In this document: positions 1,039 through 41,165 of the stretch, in pieces | Layout: each line of letters starts with the position of its first letter | How positions within the stretch are numbered: position 1 is the first letter of the stretch | Origin: Lysobacterales bacterium | GTDB taxonomy: Bacteria > Pseudomonadota > Gammaproteobacteria > Xanthomonadales > Rhodanobacteraceae | Direction: 5' to 3' | Length of the DNA stretch: 43,294 nucleotides | NCBI GenBank assembly: GCA_015655335.1 | Contig: JAATFF010000110.1 | Location: forward strand, 1 to 43,294 | The notes under the pieces: generated by a model | Database searches by the model: none | Told to the model about the DNA's origin: nothing | The model's input: only the letters and a program-made list of their open reading frames with translations | Translations under genes and position numbers: made by a program

Positions 1039-1040
1039 GT

Positions 1041-10197: not shown

Positions 10198-10959
10198 TCA
10201 AACACGAACCCGGCGCCGTTTAATCAACGCATGCCGCGCATACCGCGCCATGCATGCCATCGACTGCATCAATCCCAACTTTTCGACGTTGCGATAAATG
10301 CCCCATTGCCAGGATGCTGCCCGCAACTTATTGGCCGATAGCGATCGTTCGCGCACCATATACCAGCCAAGCGGCTCGTCCGACTCCACGCGCACCGCTT
10401 TGCCAGCGCGTCGCACCTGTTCCAACCAGAACACATAGTCTTCGTGACCGATGCGCCGAAACGGCACATCGCCCAGACGTCGCGCGTACATGCCAGTCAG
10501 GGTACCGATGAAATTGCTCGAGAGCATATCGCGCCAGTCGACTTGCGGCGGCGGGGTCACTTTTCCCAGCACGCGGCCGTCTTCGGCCACACGCCAGTAC
10601 GAGGCATAGCTGATCAAGGCGCCACTCGCGCACATGCTGATCAATTGGCGTTCGAGCTTGGCCGGATGCCACCAGTCGTCGGCGTCGAGAAATGCGATGT
10701 AGTCGCCACGCGCAGTCGCAATGCCTGCGTTGCGGGCGGCGGCGACACCGCCATTGGCTGGTTGCCTCACGACACGCATCCGTGCGTCGGCTGCTGCGTA
10801 GGCATCGATCATGGTGGGTGAGCGATCGCGCGAGCCATCGTCCACGGCGATCAATTCCAGATGGGTGTGGCTTTGTGCAAGCACCGAATCGATGGCTCGC
10901 TGCAACCATGCCTCGGCGTTGTAGACCGGCATGATGACGCTGACCAAATCGCCGCTCAT
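10198..10959 (-). CDS. Glycosyltransferase family 2
   Basis: A 253-residue cytoplasmic GT-A-fold enzyme that transfers a sugar from a nucleotide donor, probably onto the lipid-linked EPS repeat. It has the GT2 opening VSVIMPVYNAEAWLQRAIDS (residues 6-25), LIAVDDGSRD (36-45) and the metal-binding DxD-type motif FLDADDWW (90-97). GT2 family members often fall in the 250-330 residue range. A good ribosome-binding site (GAGGTGGGGG) lies before the ATG. It is the last gene of the minus-strand run, nine bases after the deacetylase-like gene. Donor and acceptor cannot be predicted. Confidence 0.88.
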   Translation of the reverse strand: MSGDLVSVIMPVYNAEAWLQRAIDSVLAQSHTHLELIAVDDGSRDRSPTMIDAYAAADARMRVVRQPANGGVAAARNAGIATARGDYIAFLDADDWWHPAKLERQLISMCASGALISYASYWRVAEDGRVLGKVTPPPQVDWRDMLSSNFIGTLTGMYARRLGDVPFRRIGHEDYVFWLEQVRRAGKAVRVESDEPLGWYMVRERSLSANKLRAASWQWGIYRNVEKLGLMQSMACMARYARHALIKRRRVRV

Positions 10960-10968
10960 GCCCCCACC

Positions 10969-12153
10969 TCACGCAGTCTGCGCTTCGTTGGCGACCTGCA
11001 CGCCGGGCGGTGGCAGCTCGTAGTCGCGGTAATCGTGCGGATTACCGGTCAATCCCGCTTCGGCGGCTTTGATAATGTTGTAGACCTCGCGCGCCGTGAC
11101 GTAGTGCAGCACGTAACGCTTGCCATCGTTGTAGTTGTGCTCCAGATGGCGGTGCATGTTGTGGGTGGCATCGCCGAGCAGCGTATCCATGTCGCGTTCC
11201 TGCGTGCCATGCGTGTGTATCTTCACGAATACCCATTCGGGCCGTCCTTCGACGTGCACGCCGGTCTTGATCCATGCATCGACACGGTCCGATGTAGGAG
11301 GGCAGGCGCGACGCACGTCGGCACTCTCGATGCGCGGCACGATACCGAAGCGCCGATTACGCCAGTTCAGCCCAAGCGGCCCTTGCACGATCAGGAGATC
11401 GCCGCTGGGTTTACCGCCGACGCGCACCAGCTCACCCGTGTCGTGCGACTTGGGTTTGGTGGGATCGTCTGTCGCGTAATAAATCGCATTGACCATACGC
11501 GTTTGCGTTTCGCTCGGTGCGGATGGCAGCGTGAAGTCGGCGTAGCAGCCAAGCTCACGCAACAGGATCAATTCGTTGTTGATGCCACACCAACGCCCAT
11601 CCGCGCGCGAATTGTCCAGGCACCAATTGCCGTGAATAAAGCCGAAGCGTAATTGGCCCGTCTGCGGATCGCGTGGCAACGCGTTGTGCCGTTCATGCAG
11701 CAGCTTGTTGAAGCGGTCGATGGTGGCTTTGAAATTCTCGGGCGTGTCGTTGTCGTGATGCAGATGAATTTCGATTTCGCCGTAACCATCCGCGCACAAC
11801 GACGCTAGCTTTTGCAGATGTTCTTCGAGGTATTCCTCTTCGGGGTAGAAAAAGGTGTGCTGGGGTGGTCGCCCGTCGGCATCCCGATGCGCATCGGCCA
11901 ATTTGCGGTAATCGCGGCACCAGCGGTCGACCCGCGCACGTTGCGTCGCCAGATCGACCTTGCCCCAGACCGGCTCAAAGTGATCGACAAAGCAGAACAT
12001 CACGTGGACCGGTTTATCGGTGACGCGCGGCAGCTTGCGCCTCAAGTAGCTGCCCAGCCAGATTTGCATGTGGCGTGCGCGGATCGCCAACGCAACGGCT
12101 ACTGCCAATATCAGCAATGCAACCAATGCAGCCAGAAGCACAATCGTCCACAT
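10969..12153 (-). CDS. Membrane-anchored putative polysaccharide-deacetylase-like protein
   Basis: A 394-residue protein with one N-terminal membrane helix (residues 3-24) and a soluble domain. It carries VMFCFVDHFEP (51-61), HTFFYPEEEY (99-108), a histidine-rich IHLHHDND (129-136), FIHGNWCLDNS and FVKIHTHGT. The spacing of an early Asp-His, a His-rich second motif and a late His resembles the metal site of NodB-type deacetylases, although the canonical TFDDG is absent. I offer that as the best guess, not a firm family. It overlaps the upstream GT4 gene by one base (TGATG), so it belongs to the EPS operon and probably modifies the glycan at the membrane. Confidence 0.5.
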   Translation of the reverse strand: MWTIVLLAALVALLILAVAVALAIRARHMQIWLGSYLRRKLPRVTDKPVHVMFCFVDHFEPVWGKVDLATQRARVDRWCRDYRKLADAHRDADGRPPQHTFFYPEEEYLEEHLQKLASLCADGYGEIEIHLHHDNDTPENFKATIDRFNKLLHERHNALPRDPQTGQLRFGFIHGNWCLDNSRADGRWCGINNELILLRELGCYADFTLPSAPSETQTRMVNAIYYATDDPTKPKSHDTGELVRVGGKPSGDLLIVQGPLGLNWRNRRFGIVPRIESADVRRACPPTSDRVDAWIKTGVHVEGRPEWVFVKIHTHGTQERDMDTLLGDATHNMHRHLEHNYNDGKRYVLHYVTAREVYNIIKAAEAGLTGNPHDYRDYELPPPGVQVANEAQTA

Positions 12154-13325
12154 CAGAGTGATTCTCCCGCGGGCAGGAGGGTGAGCAATTGCTCCGCGTT
12201 ATTGCGCCATTGGCGTTCGCGTTCGATATAGCGACGCGCAGCGGCGCCGACGCGGCGGCGCTCGTCTTCCTGCATCGCCAGATCCAGCACTCGCTGTACG
12301 CATGCGGCAGTCTCGCCGCGCGGGAACAGCCAGCCGGTATCGCCATCGCCTATCACCTCGGCAACCGGCGCGTAATCGGGCGCGACCACGGCAACGCCCA
12401 TACCCATCAGTTCGAACAGCTTCATCGGCGAGCCGTAGTGATTGGAGTTGGGCAGCACGGCGTAATCCATGCAGGCAATCCAGCTGGCAATGTCTTCGTG
12501 CGCGACGCGGCCAGGCAGCAACACGCGGTCGGACAAACCGCGTTCGGCGACAAGGGCGCGCACTGCAGGCAAAGTCAAACCATCACCGACAAAGACCAAC
12601 GCCAGTTGTGGCACCTCGGCCAAACGGGCAGCAATGGCCTCGACAAATCCGTCGACTCCGTGCCAATGCGCGAAGACGCCGATATGGCCGCAAACAATGC
12701 GATCGACCAGCCCTCGTTCCGCACGTAGTTTGGCGATGTCGAAGCGCGACGGATCGAAACGCGCCAGATCGACCGCATTGGGCGAGATCACCGATGGCGC
12801 GATTTGGCCATACACGGCTTGCGCCTCGTCGCGGAAATAGCTCGAGATGAACACCAGGCCGGTGCAGTTGCGTAGACACCATCCTTCGATGCGTCGCGCC
12901 AAGCCCGTTAAGCGCAAGGGGCGCACCCGTTCGACCAGTGCTGAATCGTTGATCTCCAGTACCAATGGGATGCCGTGTCGTCGCGCCAGCCAGACCGTCG
13001 CAAAGAGAAAGAGCGAATAGCGTTCGTAAATCAACTGCGGTCTTTGCCGGCGAATCGCGGCACTGGCACGAAAAAGAGTGACTGCGTTGTAGCCGAGTTC
13101 GAGGCATTCGAACAACACGCCGGGTAAACGAGTGATGGCTCTGGCAAGCCGGCTGCGCTTCGAATTCGCGGGCAAGGTCGACTCATGCTCGGGATCGGCG
13201 CCAGGGAAGGACATGATCGATACGTCATGTCCCAAGGCGCGCAAGGCATGCACGATGCCGCGAATATGCACGCCTTCGACATGGCGACCGCGGGTGCGAT
13301 GGTGATACAGGATTCTCATCATCAT
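12153..13325 (-). CDS. Glycosyltransferase family 4 (GT-B fold)
   Basis: A 390-residue retaining-type glycosyltransferase. The N-terminal domain holds the HVEGVHIRGIVHALRALGHD pattern (residues 15-34). The C-terminal donor domain has VCGHIGVFAHWHGVDG, FVGDGLTLPAVRALV and an EX7E-like region (GSPMKLFELMGMGVAVVAPD). The first of three consecutive ATG codons (13325) overlaps the stop of the upstream deacetylase (ATGA), favouring that start. The downstream gene overlaps by one base. It is one of three GT4 enzymes here; its sugar is unknown. Confidence 0.87.
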   Translation of the reverse strand: MMMRILYHHRTRGRHVEGVHIRGIVHALRALGHDVSIMSFPGADPEHESTLPANSKRSRLARAITRLPGVLFECLELGYNAVTLFRASAAIRRQRPQLIYERYSLFLFATVWLARRHGIPLVLEINDSALVERVRPLRLTGLARRIEGWCLRNCTGLVFISSYFRDEAQAVYGQIAPSVISPNAVDLARFDPSRFDIAKLRAERGLVDRIVCGHIGVFAHWHGVDGFVEAIAARLAEVPQLALVFVGDGLTLPAVRALVAERGLSDRVLLPGRVAHEDIASWIACMDYAVLPNSNHYGSPMKLFELMGMGVAVVAPDYAPVAEVIGDGDTGWLFPRGETAACVQRVLDLAMQEDERRRVGAAARRYIERERQWRNNAEQLLTLLPAGESL

Positions 13326-13957
13326 CCCTGCGGCAATGCCCGAAAGATATGCCCTTTAAGCAACCACTCCGGCAACATCACGCTGAGTGCATCGTGGGCG
13401 CGAGAGCTGTCATCGTGCATCAGCACGATGTCGCCGGGTTGCGGAGGATCGTCGCGCAACCGGCCGATCATTTCCTGGGTGGGCCGATCCTGGTAATCCA
13501 AGCTGTCGTAGGACCAGTAGACAAAGCTGCGTCGATGCATGGCGAAGTAACACAACAGATCCGCACCGACATATCCGTGTGGCGGCCGCATGCGATGTTG
13601 CAGGCGTCCGTCGAAAGCGCTGAGCAGTGCGTCGGTGCTGTGGATTTCGCGGAGCTTTTTACGGGTCGTCATGTTTTTGAACGACCAATGGCTATACGAA
13701 TGGTTGCCTAGCATATGGCCCTCGGCCACGATGCGTTCCACCAATTGCGGGTGGCGTTCGATCTTTTGTCCCACCAGAAAAAAACTGGCTTTCACGCCGT
13801 GCTTGGCCAGCAGGTCCAACAGCGGTGGCGTGTATGTCGGATCGGGGCCGTCGTCGAAAGTGAGATAGCGCGTATCGCCATGACGCGAGCCGCTGATCTG
13901 TACCAAGGCGTCCGGCAGCAAGCCCAACAATTGATGTTTTCTCGGTCTCATATTCAT
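13322..13957 (-). CDS. Polysaccharide deacetylase, NodB type
   Basis: A 211-residue carbohydrate-esterase-4 deacetylase that would remove N- or O-acetyl groups from sugars. Motif 1 is YLTFDDGPDP (residues 31-40) with the catalytic and metal Asp pair; motif 2 is GNHSYSHWSF (84-93) with the HxxxH metal ligands. A MRPPHGY segment (motif 3) and a late IVLMHDDS follow. No signal peptide is seen, so it may act in the cytoplasm on the lipid-linked unit. The frame runs open far upstream, but the start at 13957 overlaps the preceding stop by ATGA and leaves a normal domain boundary. Confidence 0.86.
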   Translation of the reverse strand: MNMRPRKHQLLGLLPDALVQISGSRHGDTRYLTFDDGPDPTYTPPLLDLLAKHGVKASFFLVGQKIERHPQLVERIVAEGHMLGNHSYSHWSFKNMTTRKKLREIHSTDALLSAFDGRLQHRMRPPHGYVGADLLCYFAMHRRSFVYWSYDSLDYQDRPTQEMIGRLRDDPPQPGDIVLMHDDSSRAHDALSVMLPEWLLKGHIFRALPQG

Positions 13958-15126
13958 GCTGATGCGCCCACCGATACGGCGTGGCTCGCGGCCGCGGCGC
14001 ACAAAATGGCGTCCAGCTGGCGAATGTTGTCCTCCCAGCGAAAACCGCGTGCATGCGAGGCAATCCGCTTGTGGTTCCAGCTTCGCGCGCTTGCGTTGAT
14101 GAGCGCGGTCGACAGCGCTTTCTGTTGATGTGGGGGCACCAGGATGCCGGCGTATGCAGGCACGACTTCCGGAATGCCGCCCACATGGCTGGCCACCACC
14201 GGTGTGCCGCAGGCCATCGCCTCGAGCACCACATTCGGCACGCCTTCGTTGTGGCTGGGCAGGCACAACAAATCGGCAGCGCGAAACCAATCGCCCAATT
14301 CGGCGTGCGCGACGGCACCAGCTATTTCGACACGGTCCAGGCAGCCCAGTGCTTCGGCGCGCGCGAGCAGGGCGGCGCGGGCAGCGCCAGTGCCGACGTA
14401 GACCAGCCGCGCCAGTGGTTGCGCAGCGAGTAATGCCGGAAAGGCTTCAAGCAAATCGAGACATCCCTTGGATGCCTTCAGGTTGCCGACGAACAGCAGT
14501 AGTGGCGAATACGTGGAGAAACCCAATCGCGCTCGCGATTCGCTGCGCGAATCGGGTGAAAATACCGACGTGTCGACGCCGTTATAAAGCACATGCACGT
14601 TCGATGGATGCGTGCCCAGCGCGATGGCTTTCGCCGCCAATGCACGGCTAACCGCAATCACGCCGGAGGCACCGGTCAGCGCCGAACGGATCTGAGGACG
14701 ACGCAACATACGATTGGCCTGCACGTTGAGATCGCTGCCGTGCACCTTGACCACATAGGGAATGCCAAGCCGGCGGGCCAGCCAACCCGCGGCGGCGGCA
14801 TCCGGATAGGCCCAGGCGACGAGCATGCAATCGTAGCGGGCTTTGCGTATCTGGCGCCCGCGTTGCCACCACAGCGACAGCAGCCAGAAGACCGCATGAA
14901 GCGAGCGCCCAATGCCCGGTGGAAATACGAACACGAAGTGATCGGTATGCAAATGACCGGCATTCACCTCACCGCGCTGCTCACGGAACCGCTCACGAAA
15001 ATCGACGGCGGTGATGACGTCCACGTCGTGCAATTGTCCCAGGCGTTCGAACTGTTGACGATTGAACGCGCCACGCAAAGGATCCCATGGCGTTGGAAAC
15101 AAGTTGGTCAAAATCAGCACTTTCAT
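13954..15126 (-). CDS. Glycosyltransferase family 4 (GT-B fold)
   Basis: A 390-residue GT4 enzyme. The N-terminus MKVLILTNLFPTPWDPLRGA (residues 1-20) and PYVVKVHGSDLNV are typical of glycosyltransferases of the TuaC/RfaB kind. The donor domain shows LLFVGNLKASKGCLDLLEAF and the EX7E region EGVPNVVLEAMACGTPVVAS. The start chosen at 15126 (ATGA overlap with the upstream stop) is preferred over an ATG four codons earlier. Both flanking genes overlap it by four bases, so it is translated as part of the same operon. The acceptor is probably the growing EPS repeat. Confidence 0.88.
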   Translation of the reverse strand: MKVLILTNLFPTPWDPLRGAFNRQQFERLGQLHDVDVITAVDFRERFREQRGEVNAGHLHTDHFVFVFPPGIGRSLHAVFWLLSLWWQRGRQIRKARYDCMLVAWAYPDAAAAGWLARRLGIPYVVKVHGSDLNVQANRMLRRPQIRSALTGASGVIAVSRALAAKAIALGTHPSNVHVLYNGVDTSVFSPDSRSESRARLGFSTYSPLLLFVGNLKASKGCLDLLEAFPALLAAQPLARLVYVGTGAARAALLARAEALGCLDRVEIAGAVAHAELGDWFRAADLLCLPSHNEGVPNVVLEAMACGTPVVASHVGGIPEVVPAYAGILVPPHQQKALSTALINASARSWNHKRIASHARGFRWEDNIRQLDAILCAAAASHAVSVGASA

Positions 15127-16244
15127 GGCTTTTGCCATTCCTTTGAGCCGTCATAAAGTTGGGCGTAACGCATCGCCATGGCTTCTAGCGAACCGTGTTG
15201 TTCGACCCATGCGCGTGCCGATTGACCCAGCGCCATGGCGTGCTGTGGATTGCGTAACAGCGCAAGTATGGCGTCGGCTAGCAGTCCTGGATTTCCCGCC
15301 GGGGCCAGGTATCCGGTGATATCGTCTCGCACAATCTCGCCGTTGCCGCCAACGTTGGTGGCAACGATGGGCAGTGCGACAGCGCTCGCCTCCAGCAACG
15401 CCATCGAATAGCCCTCGCTCAACGACGAAAGCACGAACATATCCAGGCCTTGCAACAGTTCGCGCACGTCGTTGCGATCGCCAAGGAAATGCACGCTTTC
15501 GGCGACCCCTTCGTCCATGGCGCTTTGTTGCAGCGATGCACGAAGTTCGCCGTCGCCAATCAACACCAGCGCGGTATCCGCATAACGTTCGTGTACCAGT
15601 TTGAAAGCACGTAAGAGACCGAGCTGATCCTTGGTCCAGTTCAGGCGCCCCACGGTACCGATGATTCGGGTTTGCTCCGGCAAATTGAGCAGGTGCGCGA
15701 GTCGACCATGCATCGCCTGTGAGACGGGCTGAAACGCATCGACATGAATGCCGTTCGGTACGACGCGCGTTTTCGCAGAAGGGACGATGCCGCGCTTGAT
15801 CGCATCGTTGCGTGCGGCTTCGCAGACGGCAACGACGGTGTCGGTGCGCGCCAATGCGCGGCGATAAAGCCACTCCCGCCGGCGCGCGCGGCGATTGACG
15901 CCCATGCCGTGCCGCGTATTGATCACCTGTCGTATAGGGATGCCGCAGGTAGCCAGCACCGCCTGGTAATGTGCAACGGCATTGTGGGTATGCAACACAT
16001 CGGTAGCATGCGTACGTACCATCCGGCGTGCGAACGCCAACGCCGACAGGTCGAAGCCCTGGCGCTTTCCGCATACCTTCACCGCAATGCCCAGGTCGTC
16101 CAGCTCGTGCGCCAACGCGCCGGACGTATATAGACACACCACCTGACAACGATGGCCTTGTCGATGCTGGTATTTCACCAGCTCCAGCACCATGCGCTCG
16201 AGGCCGCCGCGATCCAGGCTTTCGACGAAATGGGTGATGTTCAC
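15123..16244 (-). CDS. Glycosyltransferase family 4, XrtA/EPS-associated type
   Basis: A 373-residue GT4 enzyme opening VNITHFVESLDRGGLERMVL, close to the PEP-CTERM/EpsH1-associated sugar transferase type (TIGR03088-like). Other landmarks are DVLHTHNAVAHYQAVL, VINTRHGMG, IGTVGRLNWTKDQLGLLRAF and the EX7E region EGYSMALLEASAVALPIVAT. The start is GTG at 16244, which overlaps the upstream stop as GTGA. Longer in-frame starts would run deep into the CapK gene and add residues without family likeness. The precise subfamily is less certain than the fold. Confidence 0.87.
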   Translation of the reverse strand: MNITHFVESLDRGGLERMVLELVKYQHRQGHRCQVVCLYTSGALAHELDDLGIAVKVCGKRQGFDLSALAFARRMVRTHATDVLHTHNAVAHYQAVLATCGIPIRQVINTRHGMGVNRRARRREWLYRRALARTDTVVAVCEAARNDAIKRGIVPSAKTRVVPNGIHVDAFQPVSQAMHGRLAHLLNLPEQTRIIGTVGRLNWTKDQLGLLRAFKLVHERYADTALVLIGDGELRASLQQSAMDEGVAESVHFLGDRNDVRELLQGLDMFVLSSLSEGYSMALLEASAVALPIVATNVGGNGEIVRDDITGYLAPAGNPGLLADAILALLRNPQHAMALGQSARAWVEQHGSLEAMAMRYAQLYDGSKEWQKP

Positions 16245-17599
16245 GGCGTGATCTCCGAGACCGTGACACGCAACTTTCCGTTCCGCGTGAGCGGTATATC
16301 GTCGACAAAGTGACAATCCAGCTGTACGCTATCGCCGAGTACTTTGTTGACTTCACGGCGGATGTAATCCATCGACGCATCGTCAAAACCGGCGCCGCGC
16401 ACGATGGAGAGATCTAGTCGATCAAGGCGGCACTGTACCAATTGAAAGCGTTGCAGACCGGCGACATCCTTGAGCATGTGCGGAAAGAACTCTCCGGGCA
16501 GCACATGTCCGGCCGGCGTGCGAATGGCATCGAGCACCCGGCCATCGACACGCCTCAGCAACGGCAGTCCGCGCCCACAGGCACAGCGTCCGGCAGATGG
16601 CGACGCCACGTCGCCGTTGGCGTAACGCACGAAGGGCATGCCGTGATTGAAAAGATCGGTGATGACGACATCGCCGGATTCACCTTCGCGAGCGGCGCCA
16701 TGCGGCGTGCGCACCTCCACGACGAGATGATCGGCGTTTACATGCAAGCCATGGTGGTGCTCGCACTCGGCGGCGATCAACATGAACTCGCGGCATCCAT
16801 AGGTATTGAACGCGGGCGCCCTGAAAGCGTTTTGAATCAGGTCACGCTGGAATTCATGCATCGCCTCTGCGCCACCAATGATGCTTTGTGGCTGCCAGAT
16901 GTTGCGGCCATTGGCGATAAGCCACTGTGCCAGCTTCACCAGCGGTCCCACATAGGCGACGATGATGTCCGGACGATAGCGATCGATCGCATCGGCGTAT
17001 TCGGACATGTTTGCTTCGGTCATCTTGAAGCTATTGAGTACGCGGCGTGCGAAGACGGCGTTGTACATGCGATCCTTGAATTGGTGCGCGCGCGTGGGAT
17101 CGCCAACCGCGCCGCCCCAAAGGAATAGCGTGCGACGCCCCATGCGCGAGCCGGCCCATTCGTAGCCGCGCCACATCACTGCAGCTCGGCGATCATTGCT
17201 TTCGCGGGTGTAGCCAAAGCGCATCGGTTCGCCCGTCGAGCCGCCAGTGGCTTTGTATAACAAGCGGTCGCGCAGGGACTCGGCCTTGAGCTCGTCGAAA
17301 TGCGCACGGATGTCCGCTTTGGTCAGTACTGGCAGCTTTGCGTAGTCGTCGAGATTGCGGATATCTTGCGGCGTGATATCCAGCTCGCGCCACCGCTTGC
17401 GGTAGTAGGGCACCTCGCGATAACAGTGTTCGAGCAAGCGTTGCAGCCGTTTCCACTGCAGCGCCGCAATCTGTTCCGGATTCAGCCATTGGTCGCGCCG
17501 GTAATCGTCGAGATAGGCCAGCGTGTGGCGACGCCTCAAACCCGTTTCATAAGCAGGAAACAGCACACGCCGGAACGCTGCTTCATATAAGGCGTTCAT
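16241..17599 (-). CDS. CapK / phenylacetate-CoA-ligase-like AMP-forming enzyme
   Basis: A 452-residue member of the adenylate-forming CapK/PaaK-like group. It has an ATP-binding loop KATGGSTGEPMRF (residues 116-128), NTYGCREFMLIAAECEHH in the centre, and a C-terminal NGKLR lysine as in active adenylating enzymes. CapK proteins occur widely in capsule and EPS clusters and are thought to activate a carboxylate for transfer, though their exact reaction is rarely known. The start is set at ATG 17599; an ORF extension reaches into the polymerase gene. There is a 70-base gap upstream and a GTGA overlap downstream. Next to an NRPS/PKS it could activate or ligate an acyl or amino-acyl group; that is speculation. 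Confidence 0.82.
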   Translation of the reverse strand: MNALYEAAFRRVLFPAYETGLRRRHTLAYLDDYRRDQWLNPEQIAALQWKRLQRLLEHCYREVPYYRKRWRELDITPQDIRNLDDYAKLPVLTKADIRAHFDELKAESLRDRLLYKATGGSTGEPMRFGYTRESNDRRAAVMWRGYEWAGSRMGRRTLFLWGGAVGDPTRAHQFKDRMYNAVFARRVLNSFKMTEANMSEYADAIDRYRPDIIVAYVGPLVKLAQWLIANGRNIWQPQSIIGGAEAMHEFQRDLIQNAFRAPAFNTYGCREFMLIAAECEHHHGLHVNADHLVVEVRTPHGAAREGESGDVVITDLFNHGMPFVRYANGDVASPSAGRCACGRGLPLLRRVDGRVLDAIRTPAGHVLPGEFFPHMLKDVAGLQRFQLVQCRLDRLDLSIVRGAGFDDASMDYIRREVNKVLGDSVQLDCHFVDDIPLTRNGKLRVTVSEITP

Positions 17600-17669
17600 G
17601 CCGTACGCTCCATGCGCCGCAGTCGATGCACGGCGGCGGCATAGTGGCGGAAGGCGGATGAGTGCGTAT

Positions 17670-20035: not shown

Positions 20036-20208
20036 GTCGACAGTCCTCGCTGGTGGAAACAGCAGGCAAGTGCGGATGCGGTGAAGCGATGACGTAAGAC
20101 GATGTACCGATCGCCGCGGCAATGCTGCGCGCGTTTGGCAGACCGCGATTCGTAAGATGGCTTATTGATATTGGCCACTATCGGGTCCCCCAGACCGATG
20201 TATTCATG

Positions 20209-26637: not shown

Positions 26638-26647
26638 GGGCTGATCC

Positions 26648-29600
26648 TCATGCGCTTACCATCATGAATTTGCCTGGTGCATCGGGATTCGGTACGAACC
26701 AGGTCGGCTTGCCTTCCGCGTCCTTGCCCAGGCGTGCGCCGGCGACGGGTGGTGTGCTCGCATCGAGCAAACGGGTTTCGGTGTTCTTGCGACGGGGAAG
26801 GAACTCCGCTTCCTGCAGCTCGAGCACGGATTCCTTGAACGCCTTGGCGATCGCAACGAAGTCTTCTTCCCGATGGGCCGTCGTAAAGAAGCAAGGGAAA
26901 TTGTCGAGAATGTGGATGCCGCGGCTGCGCATCATCGCGAACAGTAAATCTTGCAGTGGATGATCTTCCAGGAAATTGGTTTTCCATACCGATGCAAAAT
27001 GCGTCACCTTGATCGGCGCGCCCACGCCGATGCAGAACGTGTTGAGCTCCTCGGCGAGCGAGGTTGTGCGCGCATTGAGCCGGTCCTGCAGCGCTGCGCC
27101 TGATTCCTTCAAGTGATCGAGCACCGCATGCGCGGCCGCCAACGCTAGCGGATGACGTACGAAGGTGCCGGCAAAGTAAGTGACGCCGACGGTGGGAATC
27201 GAGTCATCGCCGAATTGCCAGCCACCGCCGTCGAGCGCGTCCATGAACTTGCGTTTGCCCGCAATGACGCCAATCGGGAAGCCGCCGCCAACTACTTTGC
27301 CGTAAGAAGCCAGATCGGCATCAATGCCGAGCACCGCCTGGGCACCGCGCGGATGTGAACGGAAGCCGGTGACTACTTCGTCGAAGATGAGCAATGCGCC
27401 GGCGTCGGCAGTGATCGCGCGCAGTTCTTGCAGAAATTCGCGCGGTTGGAAGTCGGGGCGACGGCTCTGTACCGGTTCGACCAGCACGGCAGCAATCGTC
27501 GCCGCGCGCTCGCGGATGATGGCGAGCGATTCGGGCGTGCCGTAGTCGAGCACGAGCACATTTTCGGACGTGTTGCGCAGAATGCCTGGTGCGGCTGGTA
27601 CCGAGCGCAATTTCTTCGTGCCACGCACGATCACTTCATCGAAGATGCCGTGATACGAGCCGGTAAAGATCACCAGCGTATCGCGGCCGGTGATCGTGCG
27701 TGCGACGCGCACGGTTCCCATCACCGCTTCGGAACCGGTATTGCACAACGCAGCGCGATCGAACCCGGTGAGCTCGCAGATCTGTTTGGCGACGACGCCT
27801 GCCAGCGGATGCTGCGGGCCGATCTCATAACCAGCATCGAGTTGTTTGCGTATTGCCTCCAACACGAAGTCGGGCTGCCAGCCGAACAAATTCATGCCGA
27901 AGCCATTCAGTGCGTCGACGTATTCGTTGCCATCCAGATCCCACACTTTCGAGCCCTTGGAACGATCGACCACGATCTGGTAGATCATTTCTTTCAGTAG
28001 CGGACGGAATCCATTGACGACGCGTGGATCGGCCAAGTGCGATCGATGTTCCTGGGTGTATTCCTTAGACCTCCGTGTGCGCTCGATGTAGCGGCGCATA
28101 AAGGCATCCAGCCGCACGCGCTGACGGCCGGTCAATTCGGTTGCACTGGAATGAATGCGCGCGATCGCACCGAATGCCTTTTTGACGTCGTAAGTCGTAT
28201 GCGCTAGCGCGGCTTCCTCGTCGGGCGGCGTATCGGCTGCAGATACGGCGGTTTGCGCCGCAACCGGTGGTGCCGTTGCTGCAACGGGTGGTGTCGCTGG
28301 CTGTGTCGCGGCGGGCATCGCTGCTGGAGCGCCCGACTGCGCAAGCAACGCCAATTGCTGCTGCATGATCAGCATTTGTTGCTGGATCACGTCCTGTATC
28401 AATCCACCGTTCGCGGGCTGGGACATAAGCGGTACCTGACTTATTGCAGCGACAGGAGCAGCCGGCGCCGTCGCGATGGCTGCACTGCTGGAGGTAGCGA
28501 CCGCCGCCGTTTCCGGCGGCAGCAATCGATCGATGTGCTGCGCGAGACTTTCGAAGGAGGAACACGATTCCATCAGCTCGCGGAAGGTGATCTTCAAGGC
28601 GAAGGTTTTTTGCAGTTGCAGGGCGACCTGAGTCAACGACAGCGAATCGAGGCCCAGTTCGACGAAATGCGTAGCCGGATCCACACCCTCGAACTCGGTG
28701 CCGGCCACGTCTTCGAATAACGCACTGAGTTGAGTGATCAGACGCGTAGCGCGCCCAGACGTAGCGGGTGAGGCAGCGGCCATGGCGGCCTCCGGAATGA
28801 GAGTGGATGGTGTAACCGCCGTAGCGGAAAGATCGATGCGCACCGGGAGCGTGACAACGTTCGATACCGCCGCCATCGGTACTGCGGCGACTGCGGGTGG
28901 CGCTTCGATCCAATGACGCTTGCGCTCAAAGGGGTAAGTCGGCAGGCGCATGCGATGTTTGCGTTGCCGGTGATCCAACTGATCGACGGCCAGATCGACA
29001 CCGCACGACCACAGCTGACCGACCGTATCGAGCCACGCCGCGCGTTCGTTCGACGGCATATCCGCCAGTGAGGCCAACGCAAGCCTGCCGCGGCTTTGCG
29101 GATGCTGCCGCGCCAACAGGCTGAGCGTTGTACGAGGACCTACTTCGAGGAATGCTCGTTGCGGTTCGGCAAGCAAGCGTTGCAGCGCCGTGGAAAAGCG
29201 CGCGGTGCCGCGCAGATGACTCGTCCAATAGTCGACCGAGATCGCTTCCTTGTCGCTCAGCATGTCGCCGGTCAACGTCGAAGCAATCGTTATCCGCGGC
29301 GCCGATAAAGCGATATGGCTGACTTCCTGGCGGAACGCCTCCAATGCAGGATCCATCATGGAAGAATGGAAGGCGTGCGACGTGTGCAGCAACCGACAGG
29401 CGATACCGGCTTGCTCAAGCTCCGCCTGAAACGCCTGGATAAGCGGCGTCTCGCCCGACACGACACACGCATTGGGCGCATTTTCGGCAGCGAGCGATAA
29501 TGTGGTGGGAAGACGCGCTGCCAATTGCGTGGCATCCAGTCGCACCGACAACATCGAGCCGCCAGGAAGCGCCTGCATCAAACGGCCACGTCGGGCAACC

Positions 29601-32600
29601 AGACGTGCACCATCGGCGACGCTCATCACGCCAGCGATCACCGCGGCGACGAATTCACCCACGCTATGACCAATCATGGCGACAGGTGTGACGCCGTAAC
29701 TCATCCATAGACGGGCCAGTGCATATTCCATCGCGAAGATGGCTGGCTGAGTCAGTCCGGTTGCGCGGAGTGCATCTGCATCGTCGGCAAAGAGTCGCTC
29801 GCGCAAATCGAAGCCGAGTTCATCGCGCAGGATCTGTGCGCATTCGTCGAGCGCTGCACCGAATACGGGTTCCGTTTGGTAGAGCTCACGGCCCATGCCT
29901 GCGTATTGCGAGCCTTGGCCGGGAAACATGAAAACGATGCTCGGTGCCGGATTGAGCGCCGTCTTCGAGGTTGGCGACTGGGCCAAGTCCCGCAGTCGTT
30001 TCGCCGCATCTTCCGCGCCATCGGCAACCAGATGAGTGCGTTGCGCGAAAACTTTGCGACCCTTGCACAGCGTCCAGGCAACATCGGCTAGCTGGACGTC
30101 TGGTTTTGCTGCGAGATGCTCGCCCAGTCGTGCCATGGACTGGCCGAGCGCCGCATCGCTGCGCGCAGAAAGCAATAACAACTGAGGACCGCTGGCGGCA
30201 TCGGACGGTTCGCGCAGCGGTGGTTCTTCGAGAATCACGTGCGCATTGGTGCCGCCGACGCCGAACGAACTCACACCAGCGCGAAGCGGGCCGCCTTCGA
30301 ACGTCCACGCGCGCAAGGTATCGTTGACGAAGAACGGGGAGTTGGCGAGATCGAGCTTCGGGTTGTTGGCGCGAAAGTGCAGCGATGGCGGGATACGCCG
30401 TTCGGTCAGGGCGAGTGCTGTCTTGATCACACCAGTCGCACCGGCTGCCATGACTAAGTGCCCTACGTTGCTCTTGACCGAGCCGATCGCGCAGACGCCG
30501 TGTTCGTTCGCGTTCTGTTGAAACGCCTGAGTCAAACCTTCAATTTCGATGGGATCGCCCAGCGGCGTGGCCGTGCCGTGGGTTTCCACATAAGAAATCG
30601 TGCTCGCTTCCACGCCGGCGTTTTCCAATGCCATCGTGATCACAGCAGCCTGTCCGGCACTGCTTGGCGCGGTGAAGCTCGCTTTGACTCCGCCATCATT
30701 ATTGATCGCGCCGCCACGCATGACCGCGTAGATCGGATCGCCGTCGCGCAAGGCATCGGAGAGTCGCTTCAATAAAATAACGGCGGCGCCATCGCTGAAT
30801 ACGGTCCCTTGCGCGTCGATGTCGAAACTGCGCGTGTGCCCATCCGGCGACAGCATCGAGCCTTCTTGCGAGACATAACCGCTGCGCGGCGGACAGGTAA
30901 TCGACGAGCCGCCGGCAAGCGCCATGTCGCAATGACCCGCGCGCAAGGCATCGAAGGCTTGGCAGATCGCGACCAGCGATGTCGAGCATGCGGTGTTCAT
31001 GCTGATCGCCGGGCCGGTGAGGTTGAGTTTGTGCGCGACGCGCGTAGCGAGATAATCCTTTTCGTTGCTCAGCATCACCTGGAATGCGCCTAGCTTTTCG
31101 ACAAGGTCCGGCCGCGTGCTGATATGGCGCTGAAAATACGTCGCGTTGTGCATGCCGCCGAAGACGCCGATCGGCACGTCATGCTCGTCCGGAACATAAC
31201 CGCCACGCTCCAGGCATTCCCAACACAGTTCTAGGAAGATTCGCTGCTGCGGATCCATCAGCTCCGCTTCGCGCGGCGACATACCGAAAAACGCGGCATC
31301 GAAGTCTTCTACGCCATCGACAACGCCGCGTGCTGCGACGTAGGCTGGATCGTTGCGCTGTTCGGACGGGATACTCGGGTCGAGCTGATCAGCGCCGAAA
31401 AAGGTGATCGACTCGCGACCTGCGCAGAGATTGTCCCAGAACGCTTCGACATCCTTTGCACCAGGGAAGCGACCGGCCATCGCAATGATGGCAACCGGTT
31501 CGTCCGCACTTTGAGCGCGATGACGCGAAAGGCGTGGGGCAAGCGCAGCGCGTGCACCGCCGTGTTCGATCATGGCGGCAAGCGCGTCAGGCGTTGGCGT
31601 ACCGAAGAAGGCTGCTATGGTGGGGACAGTCGACGCCAGCTCGCTGTGAATGCGTGCGACCATGCGCACGGCCAGTAGCGAATTGCCGCCGAGGTCGAAG
31701 AAATGATCGTTGCGGCCGACTTGGTCTAGCCCGAGTACATCGGCGAATAGTTCGCAAAGCTGCTGTTCGGTTTTTCCGATCGCTGGTACGTAGACATCGG
31801 CAAGTTCAGGCCGACGATTGTCTGGAGCGGGCAGGGCGCGGCGATCGAGCTTGCCGTTCGTCGTGACCGGCAGCGCATCCATCGCGATGTAGATCGCCGG
31901 CACCATGAAATCCGGCAATGTACGCGCCAGTTGGTCGCGCAATGCGCGCGTGGTGACCGACGCATCCTCCGCGACGTAATACGCCACCAGTCGTTTGTGC
32001 CCGGGTCGATCTTCGCGCGCCAGCACGGCGCATGCGCGTATGCCGGGCTGACGCTGTAGAGCTGCTTCGATTTCGCCGACTTCGATCCGGTAGCCACGAA
32101 TCTTGATCTGCCCATCGGCCCGGCCGACGAACTCGATCACGCCCTGCGGCAACCAACGCACGAGATCGCCGGTGCGATACAAACGCTCATCGCCGTCACC
32201 GAACGAACGGGTAACGAACTTCTCGGCGGTCAATTCGGCGCGCGCCAGATAACCACGCGCAAGCCCCGCGCCGCCGACATACAGTTCGCCGATGACGCCC
32301 ATCGGCACCGGTTCGCCGCAACTGTTCAAGACATAGAGCGTGGTATTGGCAATCGGGCCTCCGATCGGGATCGAGCGGCTATCGGCGTCGATGTCGCAAG
32401 GTATGCGATACGTCGCGGCAAACGTGGTGCATTCCGTCGGGCCGTAGCCGTTGATGATGGTGACATCGGGCAATGCGGCGTAAGCCTTGCGCACATGCGC
32501 GACCGACAACGCTTCGCCGCCGATCAGCAGTTGCCGGAGACCGCGCAACTTGCACGCATTCTCGTCGACGATGGCGTTGAACAGTGCCGCCGTCAGCCAT

Positions 32601-33967
32601 GCGATGCGCGCACCGTGGCGTTCGATGGTGTCTTCCATGCCGCAACCGGTGGGAATGCGCTCGTCGTGCACGATGCAGGTGCCGCCATTGAGCAAGGCTC
32701 CCAATATCTCCAGCGTCGACGCATCGAAGCCGAGTGGTGCGGCATGCAATACGCGCGGATGGTCGCCGAGATCGACATAGGTCACGTCGCACACCAATCG
32801 AATGATCGATTGATGCGTAATCTCGGCACCTTTGGGTGTACCGGTCGAGCCGGACGTGTACATCACATAAGCGAGCGCGCTGCTATCGACAGAACGCGGT
32901 TGATACGCCGACGTCTCGCCCTGCAGCTGTTCGAGTTGCACGACGGGTATCTGGACATCGGGTAACGCCGGTACGTTGGCACCTGCAATGATCAAAGCCG
33001 CATGCGCGTCGTTGATGACGAAGGCGAGACGTTCCGCCGGATAGCTACGGTCAAGCGGGAGATAGGCCGCGCCTGCTTTGAGTATGCCAAGCACGGCGAT
33101 CAGTGCGTCGACGGAACGATCGAGCAATAACGCGACCGGTGCGCCAACTTCAACGCCGGCTGCGATCAAACCAGCCGCAACGCGATTGGCGCGGGCGTCG
33201 AGTTCAGCATACGAAAGCGTGAGATGAAGCGACTCGATCGCGGGCAAGTTGGCATATCGCTTGGCTTGCTCTGCGAAAAGATCATGGACGGTATCGGCAC
33301 TACGACGCGGTACCGCCGTGGCATTCCACTCGAACAACATGCGGCGGCGTTCGTCGGGATCGGCGACATCGACCAACGATAAGTCGTCATCGGAGGGAGC
33401 ACACAACCCAGCGAGCGAGCGCATGACCCCGGCGGAAAGCAAGTCAATCGCGGCGGCATGGAGAGGCGCCCGGAACGCCACTTCGAGCCGGGCAGGGGAT
33501 GCATGCACGTTCCAACGACTGTTGATGGTGCCGACCACGTCATCGCATGAGGGCTCGGCATCGATCACAGAGAGGTCGTCGCTGACCATCCATGCGGTGT
33601 GGCCGTGAATCGGCGATGCGGAATCCAGTGACGAACAGAACGCCTGAAGCCACGTGTTTCGCGCACCGGCGCGCGGTACTTCGATCGGAAGTTGTCTTGA
33701 TCCATGAGCATCAGCGCGACTGACGAAAACAGTCTGCGCACCCGTAAACCGCGATTCCACTAGCGCCAAGGCCGCGCACAGGATTGTCGCTTCACTCACA
33801 GCGTATTGTTGCGCTGTTTCCTTGAGCGCTGCGGCAAGGGGTTCGTCAAGCGCGTATTCACGGCGCGTCCAACCGGTCGGGCAAATGACAGTCTGGGACG
33901 GCAATACGTCGAATAACGAGTTGCCTTCAGCCACACCATCCTGGGTTTTGGCTACGCATGTGTTCAT
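26648..33967 (-). CDS. Hybrid NRPS-PKS with C-terminal aminotransferase: partial C-A-T-KS-AT-ACP-AMT
   Basis: A 2439-residue megasynthase. The N-terminal 220 residues look like the second half of a condensation domain, without HHxxxDG. A (225-715) has YTSGSTGTPKG (370-380), GYGPTE and NGKLDR. T carries LGGNSLL (759-765). KS (823-1250) has Cys994 in NTACSTSL, His1130 in ETHGTA and His1170 in KSNVGH. AT (1343-1640) has GHSVG (Ser1435) and HAFH (1531-1534), the malonyl-type signature. ACP carries LGLDSLS (Ser1775). An Ala/Pro/Gln-rich linker (1820-1915) leads to a class III PLP aminotransferase (about 1985-2385, IFDEVVTGFR, Lys2224 in SYGKVVGGG). My hand-read A code D-A-L-W-L-G-G-T-F-K is close to the known valine code. 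No KR, DH or ER is present. Prediction: a valine-like starter, one malonyl extension, then conversion of the beta-keto to a beta-amino group, as in the iturin/mycosubtilin aminotransferase. Confidence 0.94.
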   Translation of the reverse strand: MNTCVAKTQDGVAEGNSLFDVLPSQTVICPTGWTRREYALDEPLAAALKETAQQYAVSEATILCAALALVESRFTGAQTVFVSRADAHGSRQLPIEVPRAGARNTWLQAFCSSLDSASPIHGHTAWMVSDDLSVIDAEPSCDDVVGTINSRWNVHASPARLEVAFRAPLHAAAIDLLSAGVMRSLAGLCAPSDDDLSLVDVADPDERRRMLFEWNATAVPRRSADTVHDLFAEQAKRYANLPAIESLHLTLSYAELDARANRVAAGLIAAGVEVGAPVALLLDRSVDALIAVLGILKAGAAYLPLDRSYPAERLAFVINDAHAALIIAGANVPALPDVQIPVVQLEQLQGETSAYQPRSVDSSALAYVMYTSGSTGTPKGAEITHQSIIRLVCDVTYVDLGDHPRVLHAAPLGFDASTLEILGALLNGGTCIVHDERIPTGCGMEDTIERHGARIAWLTAALFNAIVDENACKLRGLRQLLIGGEALSVAHVRKAYAALPDVTIINGYGPTECTTFAATYRIPCDIDADSRSIPIGGPIANTTLYVLNSCGEPVPMGVIGELYVGGAGLARGYLARAELTAEKFVTRSFGDGDERLYRTGDLVRWLPQGVIEFVGRADGQIKIRGYRIEVGEIEAALQRQPGIRACAVLAREDRPGHKRLVAYYVAEDASVTTRALRDQLARTLPDFMVPAIYIAMDALPVTTNGKLDRRALPAPDNRRPELADVYVPAIGKTEQQLCELFADVLGLDQVGRNDHFFDLGGNSLLAVRMVARIHSELASTVPTIAAFFGTPTPDALAAMIEHGGARAALAPRLSRHRAQSADEPVAIIAMAGRFPGAKDVEAFWDNLCAGRESITFFGADQLDPSIPSEQRNDPAYVAARGVVDGVEDFDAAFFGMSPREAELMDPQQRIFLELCWECLERGGYVPDEHDVPIGVFGGMHNATYFQRHISTRPDLVEKLGAFQVMLSNEKDYLATRVAHKLNLTGPAISMNTACSTSLVAICQAFDALRAGHCDMALAGGSSITCPPRSGYVSQEGSMLSPDGHTRSFDIDAQGTVFSDGAAVILLKRLSDALRDGDPIYAVMRGGAINNDGGVKASFTAPSSAGQAAVITMALENAGVEASTISYVETHGTATPLGDPIEIEGLTQAFQQNANEHGVCAIGSVKSNVGHLVMAAGATGVIKTALALTERRIPPSLHFRANNPKLDLANSPFFVNDTLRAWTFEGGPLRAGVSSFGVGGTNAHVILEEPPLREPSDAASGPQLLLLSARSDAALGQSMARLGEHLAAKPDVQLADVAWTLCKGRKVFAQRTHLVADGAEDAAKRLRDLAQSPTSKTALNPAPSIVFMFPGQGSQYAGMGRELYQTEPVFGAALDECAQILRDELGFDLRERLFADDADALRATGLTQPAIFAMEYALARLWMSYGVTPVAMIGHSVGEFVAAVIAGVMSVADGARLVARRGRLMQALPGGSMLSVRLDATQLAARLPTTLSLAAENAPNACVVSGETPLIQAFQAELEQAGIACRLLHTSHAFHSSMMDPALEAFRQEVSHIALSAPRITIASTLTGDMLSDKEAISVDYWTSHLRGTARFSTALQRLLAEPQRAFLEVGPRTTLSLLARQHPQSRGRLALASLADMPSNERAAWLDTVGQLWSCGVDLAVDQLDHRQRKHRMRLPTYPFERKRHWIEAPPAVAAVPMAAVSNVVTLPVRIDLSATAVTPSTLIPEAAMAAASPATSGRATRLITQLSALFEDVAGTEFEGVDPATHFVELGLDSLSLTQVALQLQKTFALKITFRELMESCSSFESLAQHIDRLLPPETAAVATSSSAAIATAPAAPVAAISQVPLMSQPANGGLIQDVIQQQMLIMQQQLALLAQSGAPAAMPAATQPATPPVAATAPPVAAQTAVSAADTPPDEEAALAHTTYDVKKAFGAIARIHSSATELTGRQRVRLDAFMRRYIERTRRSKEYTQEHRSHLADPRVVNGFRPLLKEMIYQIVVDRSKGSKVWDLDGNEYVDALNGFGMNLFGWQPDFVLEAIRKQLDAGYEIGPQHPLAGVVAKQICELTGFDRAALCNTGSEAVMGTVRVARTITGRDTLVIFTGSYHGIFDEVIVRGTKKLRSVPAAPGILRNTSENVLVLDYGTPESLAIIRERAATIAAVLVEPVQSRRPDFQPREFLQELRAITADAGALLIFDEVVTGFRSHPRGAQAVLGIDADLASYGKVVGGGFPIGVIAGKRKFMDALDGGGWQFGDDSIPTVGVTYFAGTFVRHPLALAAAHAVLDHLKESGAALQDRLNARTTSLAEELNTFCIGVGAPIKVTHFASVWKTNFLEDHPLQDLLFAMMRSRGIHILDNFPCFFTTAHREEDFVAIAKAFKESVLELQEAEFLPRRKNTETRLLDASTPPVAGARLGKDAEGKPTWFVPNPDAPGKFMMVSA

Positions 33968-34023
33968 GAGGCTTTCGCGATCTCCATGTCGGTGATAGCC
34001 GTTAGTGCGTTACGTGATGTCGA

Positions 34024-34941
34024 TCAATCAGCCACTGCATAGGCGCTGGGATGCGCCAGCGATGGACAGGCAGGCGGTCGGCTGCCAACCCCGTGCGCGG
34101 CGACCAGGGCGGACGCCGTGGCATAGGTCAGCGTGTCGACCAGAGGGCGTTTGCCCACCGGGATCGGTTTGATGCCTTTGCGGTAGAGAAAATCGTTCAT
34201 CACATGTCGCATGGCGTTCCGGCGCGTCGCTGCGGTGCTGTACGTCAAGCTAATGGTGATCGACGGCTCGTCGGTGGTTTCGACCATGTGCGGGCAGGTG
34301 ATCGGCATGTACACACCCATGCCGGGGCCGAGCGTGAAGACGTGCGCGCGTTCGCGAAATGCCTCGCTCCACTTCACCAATTCGAGATCGTGCCGTGCAT
34401 GGAACACGTCGCGTGCACGCTCGCTGCATACTTCGGTATCGCTGGCATCCCAGACATAAACTTTCTTGGTGCCGCGAACCTGCAGCAAAATGCCGTGATT
34501 GCGGTCGATATGAAACGGCGTGATGGTGTGCGGCGAAGCCACGAAAATCCATCCAGCGCGGTAATGCATGCCCGGGTCTTTGCGCTCGATCAACGGCTGG
34601 ATCGGGTCCATCGCCAAGTTGACCAGGTCGCGGTAGGTCGGATCATCCTGGACGTGACGCAGCAACATCCACGCCTTGGCGTCGTTGATGCCTTGTAGCG
34701 TGTCAGCGGCGGATTTGCGATTGGGATACAGACGACCGACATCGTCGAAGTTAGCGTCGGCACCGGCTTCGTTGTTGAACGTAAACAGCCGCGTGCTGCC
34801 CTGGAAGCGCTTGCCTAATGCCACCAATTGATCGGGCTGCAATAGAGGATGATCGGACAACCGGTGCCGCACAGCCTGGATGCGCCATGGATCGAAGGTG
34901 TCCCAATCGAAATCGATAAGTGCTGCTGCACTGGTGTTCAT
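34024..34941 (-). CDS. Cupin/JmjC-type Fe(II)/2-oxoglutarate oxygenase
   Basis: A 305-residue protein with the cupin_8/JmjC fold. The HxD metal pair is in PFHIDRNHG (His144, Asp146) and the distal ligand in ITCPHMVET (His218), with GTKKVYVWD between them and LGPGMGVYMP before the last ligand. These residues support a working Fe(II)/2-oxoglutarate enzyme. As first gene of the presumed assembly-line operon, 56 bases before the PKS, it is a good candidate for hydroxylating an amino-acid building block or a carrier-bound intermediate. A protein-hydroxylase role remains possible. ATG 34941 is preferred over an ATG seven codons upstream because GGGGAGG lies just before it. The C-terminal 40 residues look disordered. 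Confidence 0.82.
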   Translation of the reverse strand: MNTSAAALIDFDWDTFDPWRIQAVRHRLSDHPLLQPDQLVALGKRFQGSTRLFTFNNEAGADANFDDVGRLYPNRKSAADTLQGINDAKAWMLLRHVQDDPTYRDLVNLAMDPIQPLIERKDPGMHYRAGWIFVASPHTITPFHIDRNHGILLQVRGTKKVYVWDASDTEVCSERARDVFHARHDLELVKWSEAFRERAHVFTLGPGMGVYMPITCPHMVETTDEPSITISLTYSTAATRRNAMRHVMNDFLYRKGIKPIPVGKRPLVDTLTYATASALVAAHGVGSRPPACPSLAHPSAYAVAD

Positions 34942-35174
34942 GATTTCAAACCTCCCCGTCATACGAAAGGTTGGCGCAATAGGTAACTACTCTTTGCGCC
35001 GACACATCGCGTATGTCGTCCGCCACGACGCTGTTTTGATGGTCGCAGCGATCTTTACGATGCTAATGCTGACGTCGCTACGTCAGTCCCCCACGGATTC
35101 CCCGTTTGTGTTTTCCATGTCAAGCAACTTGCCGGCGCACCAAAAATTGAAAGATGCAGAGCCAGCACACCAAT
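34942..35174 (-). promoter_or_regulatory. Putative promoter region of the oxygenase-PKS-NRPS operon
   Basis: This gap lies between the secreted-protein gene and the oxygenase, both on the minus strand. Reading the minus strand there is a consensus TTGACA at 35123-35118, but no good -10 hexamer at the proper spacing, so an activator may be needed or the match may be chance. An exact inverted repeat lies 3' of it (separate entry). GGGGAGG directly upstream of ATG 34941 is the ribosome-binding site. I see no clear terminator for the secreted-protein gene, so that gene may read into the operon. Confidence 0.4.
35069..35086. promoter_or_regulatory. Perfect inverted repeat, possible operator
   Basis: CTGACGT-CGCT-ACGTCAG: two perfect 7-base arms around a 4-base spacer, 128-145 bases upstream of the oxygenase start. 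On the minus strand it lies about 32-49 bases past the end of the TTGACA hexamer. A dimeric regulator could bind here. No family-specific consensus is recognised. Confidence 0.4.
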
Positions 35175-35954: not shown

Positions 35955-36124
35955 GGCACACCCCCTACCACAGTAGTGTAATTCTGAGAACTACATCACA
36001 CTAAGTCAAGCTCAAAATGTGCTTGCGGCGCCGCCAGTCCTGCGCGAGGCTAGCAGGGTCCCGCCGCAGTCGCCCCAGTCGTCAGGCGCGCGTAGGACCA
36101 CCACCGTTCAACAGGGGAACTGGC

Positions 36125-41149: not shown

Positions 41150-41165
41150 GGCATGACATCCTTAT

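Follow-up and report, generated by a model that had tools for sequence, protein, structure and literature searches.

A PKS-NRPS assembly line and two hydrolase-like genes associated with an exopolysaccharide locus in Rhodanobacteraceae

We analyzed a stretch of 43,294 nucleotides (the window; contig JAATFF010000110.1 of assembly GCA_015655335.1, a Lysobacterales bacterium of the Rhodanobacteraceae) in which a hybrid polyketide synthase (PKS) and non-ribosomal peptide synthetase (NRPS) assembly line, hereafter the line, lies inside an exopolysaccharide (EPS) locus. This contig belongs to a metagenome-assembled genome (MAG) of 3.5 Mb and 86% completeness. The line keeps its place among the EPS genes across the family and, as a new finding, travels with two hydrolases encoded at 3247–4856 (hyd2 and hyd1). 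That many relatives share this arrangement, along with the hydrolase-like pair, suggests that the product of the line is a group destined for the polysaccharide. We hypothesized that the PKS and NRPS are the synthetic half, and hyd2 and hyd1 the release half, of a portable cassette making an EPS-decorating group, and we hold this with moderate confidence. The functional linkage of the line to the hydrolases and the EPS locus is well supported; covalent attachment of the product to the EPS is what we infer from it. The genes that carry the argument are as follows.

26648–33967, minus strand: PKS (Pfam domains and motifs)
20209–26637, minus strand: NRPS (Pfam domains and motifs)
10969–12153, minus strand: 394-amino-acid protein with an N-terminal hydrophobic segment and zero Pfam or NCBIfam matches, used as the EPS marker
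3247–4029, plus strand: hyd2, predicted alpha/beta-hydrolase fold, similar to XrtA hydrolase 2 below cut-off (NCBIfam, model)
4026–4856, plus strand: hyd1, predicted alpha/beta-hydrolase fold, similar to XrtA hydrolase 1 below cut-off (NCBIfam, model)

Conservation of the line in EPS loci of the family

The survey covered 233 genomes of the same family, that of the window (G000) counted in, and the line was scored genome-wide by the aminotransferase (AMT) region of the PKS. The AMT region was present in 104 of the 233 genomes (82 at 72% identity or above, 22 at 44–57%) and the EPS marker in 94. Both were found in 82 genomes, on a single contig in 74 and split over contigs in 8. The distance between AMT and marker was 12,160–19,573 bases in 71 of the 74 single-contig genomes (70 co-directional, one inverted) and 33–39 kb in the other three. 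In 11 of 60 relatives, PKS homologues showed 61–84% identity across at least about 90% of the length, and some others gave fragments or weaker matches. The PKS-NRPS sat between EpsB and the series of Wzy and glycosyltransferase (GT) genes in all 13 genomes inspected closely. The initial annotation had proposed to check whether the gene order is conserved in related genomes; the order was kept. The co-occurrence with the EPS marker and the spacing from it show that the line is no chance insertion.

Within one genus (g18), a common EPS backbone carried line I (G188), line II (G201, G178 and G179) or no line (G192). Between G188 and G201, identity of the backbone proteins was 90% for the marker, 84% for GT4a, 82% for CapK, 81% for GT4b, 70% for both deacetylase 1 and GT4c, 65% for Wzy and 59% for deacetylase 2. 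The lines themselves were far less alike, with 50% identity for the PKS and 40% for the NRPS over part of the length, and the GT2 genes did not correspond. The PKS of G187, which also carries line I, was 67% identical to that of G188, yet most backbone proteins of G187 were farther from G188 than those of G201. CapK, GT4b, GT4a and the marker of G192, the genome without a line, were 82–90% identical to those of G188. These three states on a common backbone offer a natural comparison that is open to glycan analysis.

The hydrolase pair and the comparison with XrtA loci

A hyd1 profile (A2) matched 106 of the 233 genomes at E 1e-15, and the 99 strong matches (E <1e-75) were counted as positive. 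The seven weak matches left uncounted (G061, G076, G102, G192, G205, G237 and G239) had E values of 1e-23 to 5e-35 and were mostly partial within longer open reading frames (ORFs); three of them were line-less EPS-marker genomes. Counted hyd1 was present in 96 of the 104 line genomes and in 3 of the 129 line-less genomes (line only, 8; hyd1 only, 3; neither, 126), an association with a Fisher p of 1.7e-51, uncorrected for shared ancestry. Among the 94 EPS-marker genomes, 82 had line and hyd1, none the line only, three hyd1 only and nine neither; these counts indicate that hyd1 goes with the line and not with the backbone. The three hyd1-only marker genomes (G105, G118 and G166) are fragmented or incomplete assemblies. 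Where hyd1 and the line shared a contig (78 family genomes), hyd1 lay downstream on the same strand, at most 8 kb away, in 14. Elsewhere, the hydrolase series was 40–470 kb from the line, with chain-length, galE and flippase genes alongside in the four genomes inspected.

A wider AMT scan of genome contigs gave the best 80 loci (L codes), whose flanks of up to 10 kb were searched at E 1e-12. Their titles name Dyella, Frateuria, Luteibacter, Rhodanobacter, Dokdonella, Lysobacter, Pseudoxanthomonas, Luteimonas, Variovorax, Xenophilus, Thiomonas, Ideonella and MAGs. The flanks held an EPS-type gene in 43 loci, hyd1 in 39, and one or the other in 65. Whole-record searches of 19 genomes or records found hyd1 in 14; the 13 of the 19 without hyd1 in the flank gave seven strong matches, one weak match (L178) and five without any. 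The hyd2-hyd1 pair followed the NRPS in Lysobacter and Variovorax loci. In Variovorax paradoxus, the row read PKS, NRPS, phosphopantetheinyl transferase, hyd2, hyd1, polysaccharide export, autokinase and sugar transferase; its hyd1, annotated as hypothetical, was found by the profile and had zero NCBIfam matches at 1e-20.

In five ORFs (L190, L192, L198, L270 and L274), NRPS and hyd2 formed a single frame with hyd2 directly behind the last carrier motif. Each of the four fusion ORFs scanned with Pfam had Condensation, AMP-binding and PP-binding; a C-terminal Hydrolase_4 match was above cut-off in L274 and just below it in L270, and in L198 and L190 this part was matched by the hyd2 profile only. 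In these frames, hyd2 occupies the position of a thioesterase. The nucleophile elbow of hyd1 held Cys in 39 of 39 loci, whereas that of hyd2 held Arg in 36 of 40 rows (the rest being one Gly, two not visible and one hyd1 cross-match). In an alignment with the solved hydrolase 9pjb, the Cys of hyd1 matched the GLSMG Ser. Predicted models of hyd1 and hyd2 were both alpha/beta hydrolases (mean pLDDT 84.7 and 80.5), and structure searches returned mostly esterases, lipases and the thioesterase DcsB, with query TM values of 0.42–0.69 among the 50 matches listed for each; these searches confirm the fold only.

The locus had initially been annotated against the frame of XrtA EPS loci, with two XrtA-type hydrolases in the window. 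The pair is indeed present; it lies on the strand opposite to the line and below the NCBIfam cut-offs (82.1 against 168.45 bits for hydrolase 1 and 89.5 against 202.75 for hydrolase 2), so that its two proteins are relatives of the XrtA hydrolase families rather than members of them. The XrtA frame itself was not borne out. Exosortase (TIGR02602) was not found in G000, itself an 86%-complete MAG, and it occurred in 20 of the 233 family genomes, none of which had the line, the EPS marker or a strong hyd1 match (exosortase against line, Fisher p 4.6e-6). The TIGR03098 acyl-CoA ligase was above its cut-off of 592.35 bits in none of the 233 genomes; one match, in G250, came close (580.3 bits) and lay about 300 kb from the line in the same genome. 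PEP-CTERM (TIGR02595) gave zero matches, as it did in the control genomes. Since exosortase was found neither in G000 nor in any of the 104 line genomes, we rejected an XrtA system and describe the backbone as XrtA-like.

XrtA/PEP-CTERM EPS loci (TIGR03100/TIGR03101, TIGR03098) resemble the present locus in their EpsB-, chain-length-, GT4-, deacetylase- and hydrolase-type genes. A class-level TIGR03100 search matched 32 of 229 genomes, 20 above cut-off, and eight canonical loci (above cut-off) and eight weaker loci were inspected. In the canonical loci, Cys was visible at the nucleophile position of hydrolase 1 in seven of eight and Arg at that of hydrolase 2 in six of eight, and an A-domain-like ligase lay within the 20-kb stretch in seven of eight; the three ligases scanned were TIGR03098. 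Here, by contrast, the single AMP ligase is replaced by a multidomain PKS-NRPS, and exosortase was not found in any of the 104 line genomes. The eight weaker loci came from seven genomes, and seven of the loci had NRPS-type ORFs. The hydrolase pair thus works beside either a single ligase or a PKS-NRPS.

Domain architecture, proposed role and alternatives

The PKS has the Pfam order adenylation (A), peptidyl carrier protein (PCP), ketosynthase (KS), acyltransferase (AT), acyl carrier protein (ACP) and class III aminotransferase. Its motifs TACSTS, ETHGTAT, KSNVGH, GHSVGE and YGKVVGGG are present, with those of KS, AT, ACP and AMT intact, and the N-terminal ~220 amino acids resemble, by eye only, a remnant of a condensation (C) domain. 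A Pfam domain scan of the PKS gave zero ketoreductase, dehydratase or enoylreductase matches. The NRPS reads C-A-PCP-C-A-PCP; both HHxxxDG motifs and both carrier motifs are kept, and the second A domain is degenerate, having lost its core motifs. Zero thioesterase or reductase matches were found in the NRPS with Pfam. KS, AT, ACP, A, C and PCP domains with active-site motifs, apart from the second NRPS A domain, mark the pair as a hybrid PKS-NRPS. Among 95 NRPS ORFs with a terminal C domain, a count that includes several genomes twice, 42 had no A domain between the terminal C domain and the carrier, 30 were without one or both tested motifs (eight of these keep the A3 core), 18 were intact and five could not be judged. 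The pocket of the first A domain, in the PKS, read DA[LF]AxGGTF in most of the main clade, which we take to be valine-like, and that of the first NRPS A domain DI[LM]xxGxV[YW], presumably glycine-like. These substrates are guesses, as the alignment was set by eye without a reference structure and the fourth position is uncertain.

PKSs of the iturin/mycosubtilin type have a beta-aminotransferase in the order KS-AT-ACP-aminotransferase, followed by NRPS modules, as seen here. The present line differs in that an amino-acid A domain replaces the starting fatty acyl ligase, a thioesterase is lacking and the genes lie in an EPS locus. For the line of the window, we infer the substrates, the order of the chemistry, acyl transfer by hyd1 and the glycan acceptor. 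The PKS A domain would load an amino acid, KS-AT-ACP would add one malonyl unit and the aminotransferase would convert the beta-keto group to an amine. The resulting unit would resemble a 3,4-diamino acid and may be hydroxylated by the oxygenase of the locus. The NRPS would then add a second, probably small residue. Finally, hyd2, probably non-catalytic and at the place of a thioesterase, and hyd1, through a Cys acyl-enzyme, may release the chain from its carrier and transfer it to a glycan acceptor in the cytosol, ahead of export by Wzx/Wzy. A free amine in the cytosol is possible because both CE4 deacetylases of the locus are without a strongly hydrophobic segment. More broadly, PKS-NRPS-hyd2-hyd1 may be portable over Xanthomonadales and Burkholderiales, handing peptide-polyketide groups to EPS with the hydrolases as a carrier-to-glycan transfer pair (a Cys acyltransferase and a silent partner); this extension is tentative, and we lean slightly toward doubting it.

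Several observations weigh against the proposed cassette. Independent retention of EPS genes and line, which had been named at the outset as a sign that the two are unlinked, was not seen for most genomes, as 82 of the 94 marker genomes carry the line; the exceptions are 12 EPS-marker genomes without an AMT match, 22 genomes with AMT and without the marker, and a Variovorax RA8 plasmid. Five of the 12 line-less genomes were inspected (G019, G080, G084, G192 and G092): the backbone genes were there, the line was absent and hyd1 and hyd2 were unmatched in the stretch; others of the 12 are fragmented assemblies. Among the 22 marker-less genomes, nine regions were inspected. Seven, in favor of the cassette, had hyd2-hyd1 directly downstream of the NRPS (G093, G250, G088, G095, G096, G256 and G241); six of them had EpsB, TviB, chain-length or GT genes close by, whereas G256 had galE alone. 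The G075 region was without hydrolase and had GT2-type matches alone, and that of G130 had neither hydrolase nor GT2-type match, with no EPS genes in the 20 kb inspected. Eight of the 104 AMT genomes were without hyd1, and four counted hyd1 frames hold one internal TGA (G122, G123, G124 and G096). Among the best 80 AMT loci, 14 had a flank free of both EPS genes and hydrolases (seven being contigs <8 kb), and whole-record searches did not find hyd1 in L221, L223, L225, L235 and plasmid W01. In the window itself, hyd1 and hyd2 sit in a separate, convergent gene series, and the priming transferase has an in-frame stop. The deacetylases were also considered as partners of the line, a role that was weakened since they persist in EPS loci without it. 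No deacetylase was matched in 40–55-kb stretches of three EPS loci with the line (G088, G095 and G096), and for both reasons a deacetylase-made acceptor amine is doubtful.

The line might instead make a free secreted metabolite, such as a metal ligand or an antibiotic, its genes being kept in the EPS locus perhaps so as to be co-regulated in biofilms, with hyd1 and hyd2 as ordinary trans thioesterases that release it. The line on the Variovorax RA8 plasmid lies with a 2OG oxygenase, methyltransferases, RND efflux and copper genes, without hydrolase and without an annotated EPS gene in a 41.5-kb stretch. A Spirosoma plasmid carries a related PKS near copper genes (copper ATPases), again without EPS genes; a copper-binding product is conceivable for these plasmid lines (L284, L286). 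Both cases count against the cassette and, with the hyd1-less AMT genomes and the G130 region, favor a free metabolite, which stays alive because related lines occur outside EPS loci. Nevertheless, we consider it unlikely: no dedicated small-molecule exporter was seen among the window proteins scanned, the elbow of hyd1 has Cys and not Ser, canonical XrtA EPS loci use a hydrolase pair of related type although a single ligase and not an NRPS was seen in them, and divergent lines are kept in one EPS slot. Transfer of the product onto a lipid, a glycan of the lipopolysaccharide type or a protein-linking sugar, comparable to the Porphyromonas Wbp/Vim scheme, with the Wzy_C O-ligase-like protein as transferase, is improbable. 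The TIGR03097-like ligase (below cut-off), the TviB-type dehydrogenase and the CE4 deacetylases would fit it, whereas the genes for flippase and chain length speak for a polymer and exosortase was found in none of the line genomes. Least probable is independent co-location, with the EPS locus as a hot spot for insertion of functionally unlinked genes. The nine EPS-marker genomes with neither line nor hyd1 show that the locus can dispense with both; however, the co-occurrence of hyd1 (with the caveat on ancestry given above), the spread of the line over many genera of Xanthomonadales and Burkholderiales among the best 80 loci, the NRPS-hyd2 fusions and the two divergent lines in the same slot speak against mere proximity. 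The decoration of a polysaccharide suggested by the initial annotation thus gained from slot conservation, exchange of divergent lines and hydrolase co-occurrence, and lost its XrtA label.

DltA/DltC likewise activate an amino acid on a carrier protein, in that case for teichoic acid as the envelope polymer; this Gram-positive system differs in using a single amino acid and a dedicated membrane transferase. An NRPS serving such an EPS locus appeared in no title or abstract start among the matches listed by an open-licence PMC full-text search. If the proposed cassette is true, an antibiotic-type modular assembly line would be a polysaccharide-modifying tool, the order of domains would reveal part of EPS chemistry, and a testable job would fall to two protein families of environmental bacteria that NCBIfam lists as hypothetical and XrtA-associated. 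As described in PMC7468200, the Wbp/Vim pathway of Porphyromonas and Tannerella attaches an amino-acid group to an amino sugar once this has been deacetylated in a proposed step, and the authors speculate there that PEP-CTERM-type loci likewise make an amino acid-modified sugar. The CE4 deacetylase step and the UDP-sugar dehydrogenase are alike, and an amino-acid group on an amino sugar, described there, is what we propose here; in that pathway, one amino acid is moved by VimA (FemAB/N-acetyltransferase-like). The present locus differs in its two-protein assembly line and alpha/beta-hydrolase pair. CE4 deacetylases such as that pathway uses are encoded in the window, and a FemAB-like aminoacyl transferase (VimA/TIGR03019) was unmatched in the general scans of window proteins, the genome not having been searched for it.

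Gene layout of the locus

Window proteins were scanned against Pfam and NCBIfam, with the curated cut-offs applied for NCBIfam. The co-directional series from oxygenase, PKS-aminotransferase and NRPS to deacetylase, Wzy, CapK, GT4 and GT2, described initially from ORFs, was confirmed by these scans, all on the minus strand. The remaining features are listed below.

34024–34962, minus strand: Fe(II)/2-oxoglutarate-type oxygenase, Cupin_8/JmjC_2 (PF13621, PF08007; HxD motif as HID)
18935–20035, minus strand: CE4-type deacetylase 1, without strongly hydrophobic segment (Pfam, motif reading)
17670–18935, minus strand: Wzy_C/O-antigen-ligase-like membrane protein (Pfam/NCBIfam; TIGR03097-like, below cut-off)
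16241–17602, minus strand: CapK/PaaK-like AMP ligase (zero Pfam matches; NCBIfam PaaK-type matches below cut-offs)
15123–16244, minus strand: GT4 glycosyltransferase (Pfam)
13954–15138, minus strand: GT4 glycosyltransferase (Pfam)
13322–13960, minus strand: CE4 deacetylase 2, TFDDG/HSYSH/RPPHG, without strongly hydrophobic segment (Pfam, motifs)
12153–13325, minus strand: GT4 glycosyltransferase (Pfam)
10198–10959, minus strand: GT2 glycosyltransferase (Pfam)
7618–9165, plus strand: Wzx-type flippase (PF01943)
36782–38182, minus strand: EpsB-type priming sugar-phosphate transferase (TIGR03013 family), in-frame TAG at 37271–37273
40139–42443, minus strand: sugar epimerase and TviB-type UDP-GlcNAc dehydrogenase (TviB-type, 626 bits, above the NCBIfam cut-off of 592)
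1–3250, plus strand: chain-length protein (truncated by the window edge), kinase-like ORF and outer-membrane protein, order kept in relatives

The upper coordinate of the oxygenase gene is 34962 here and 34941 in the initial annotation owing to an alternative Met, and its profile matched 29 of the best 80 AMT loci. The kinase-like ORF (1035–1820) was labeled by eye alone, outside the scans. The gap between PKS and NRPS is 10 bases and that between NRPS and deacetylase 1 is 173 bases. A scan of 19900–20400 gave zero promoter- or terminator-like sites; since shuffled sequences are expected to give merely 0.1 and 0.5, this says little on a single transcript. The EpsB frame was intact in 14 of 14 relatives checked, in contrast to the TAG in the window, for which a lesion and an assembly error are both possible. 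With the flippase, the Wzy-type polymerase, the edge-cut chain-length protein and the interrupted priming transferase, the locus has the parts of a Wzx/Wzy-dependent EPS locus.

Two further ORFs lie between the oxygenase and EpsB genes. The protein of 35175–35954 has a signal-like N terminus and zero Pfam or NCBIfam matches, and its homologues adjoin the line in 12 of the 13 genomes inspected closely (all but G018). A small DnaJ-domain protein is encoded at 36017–36781 on the opposite strand near EpsB and is kept in 10 of these 13 genomes (all but G033, G020 and G018).

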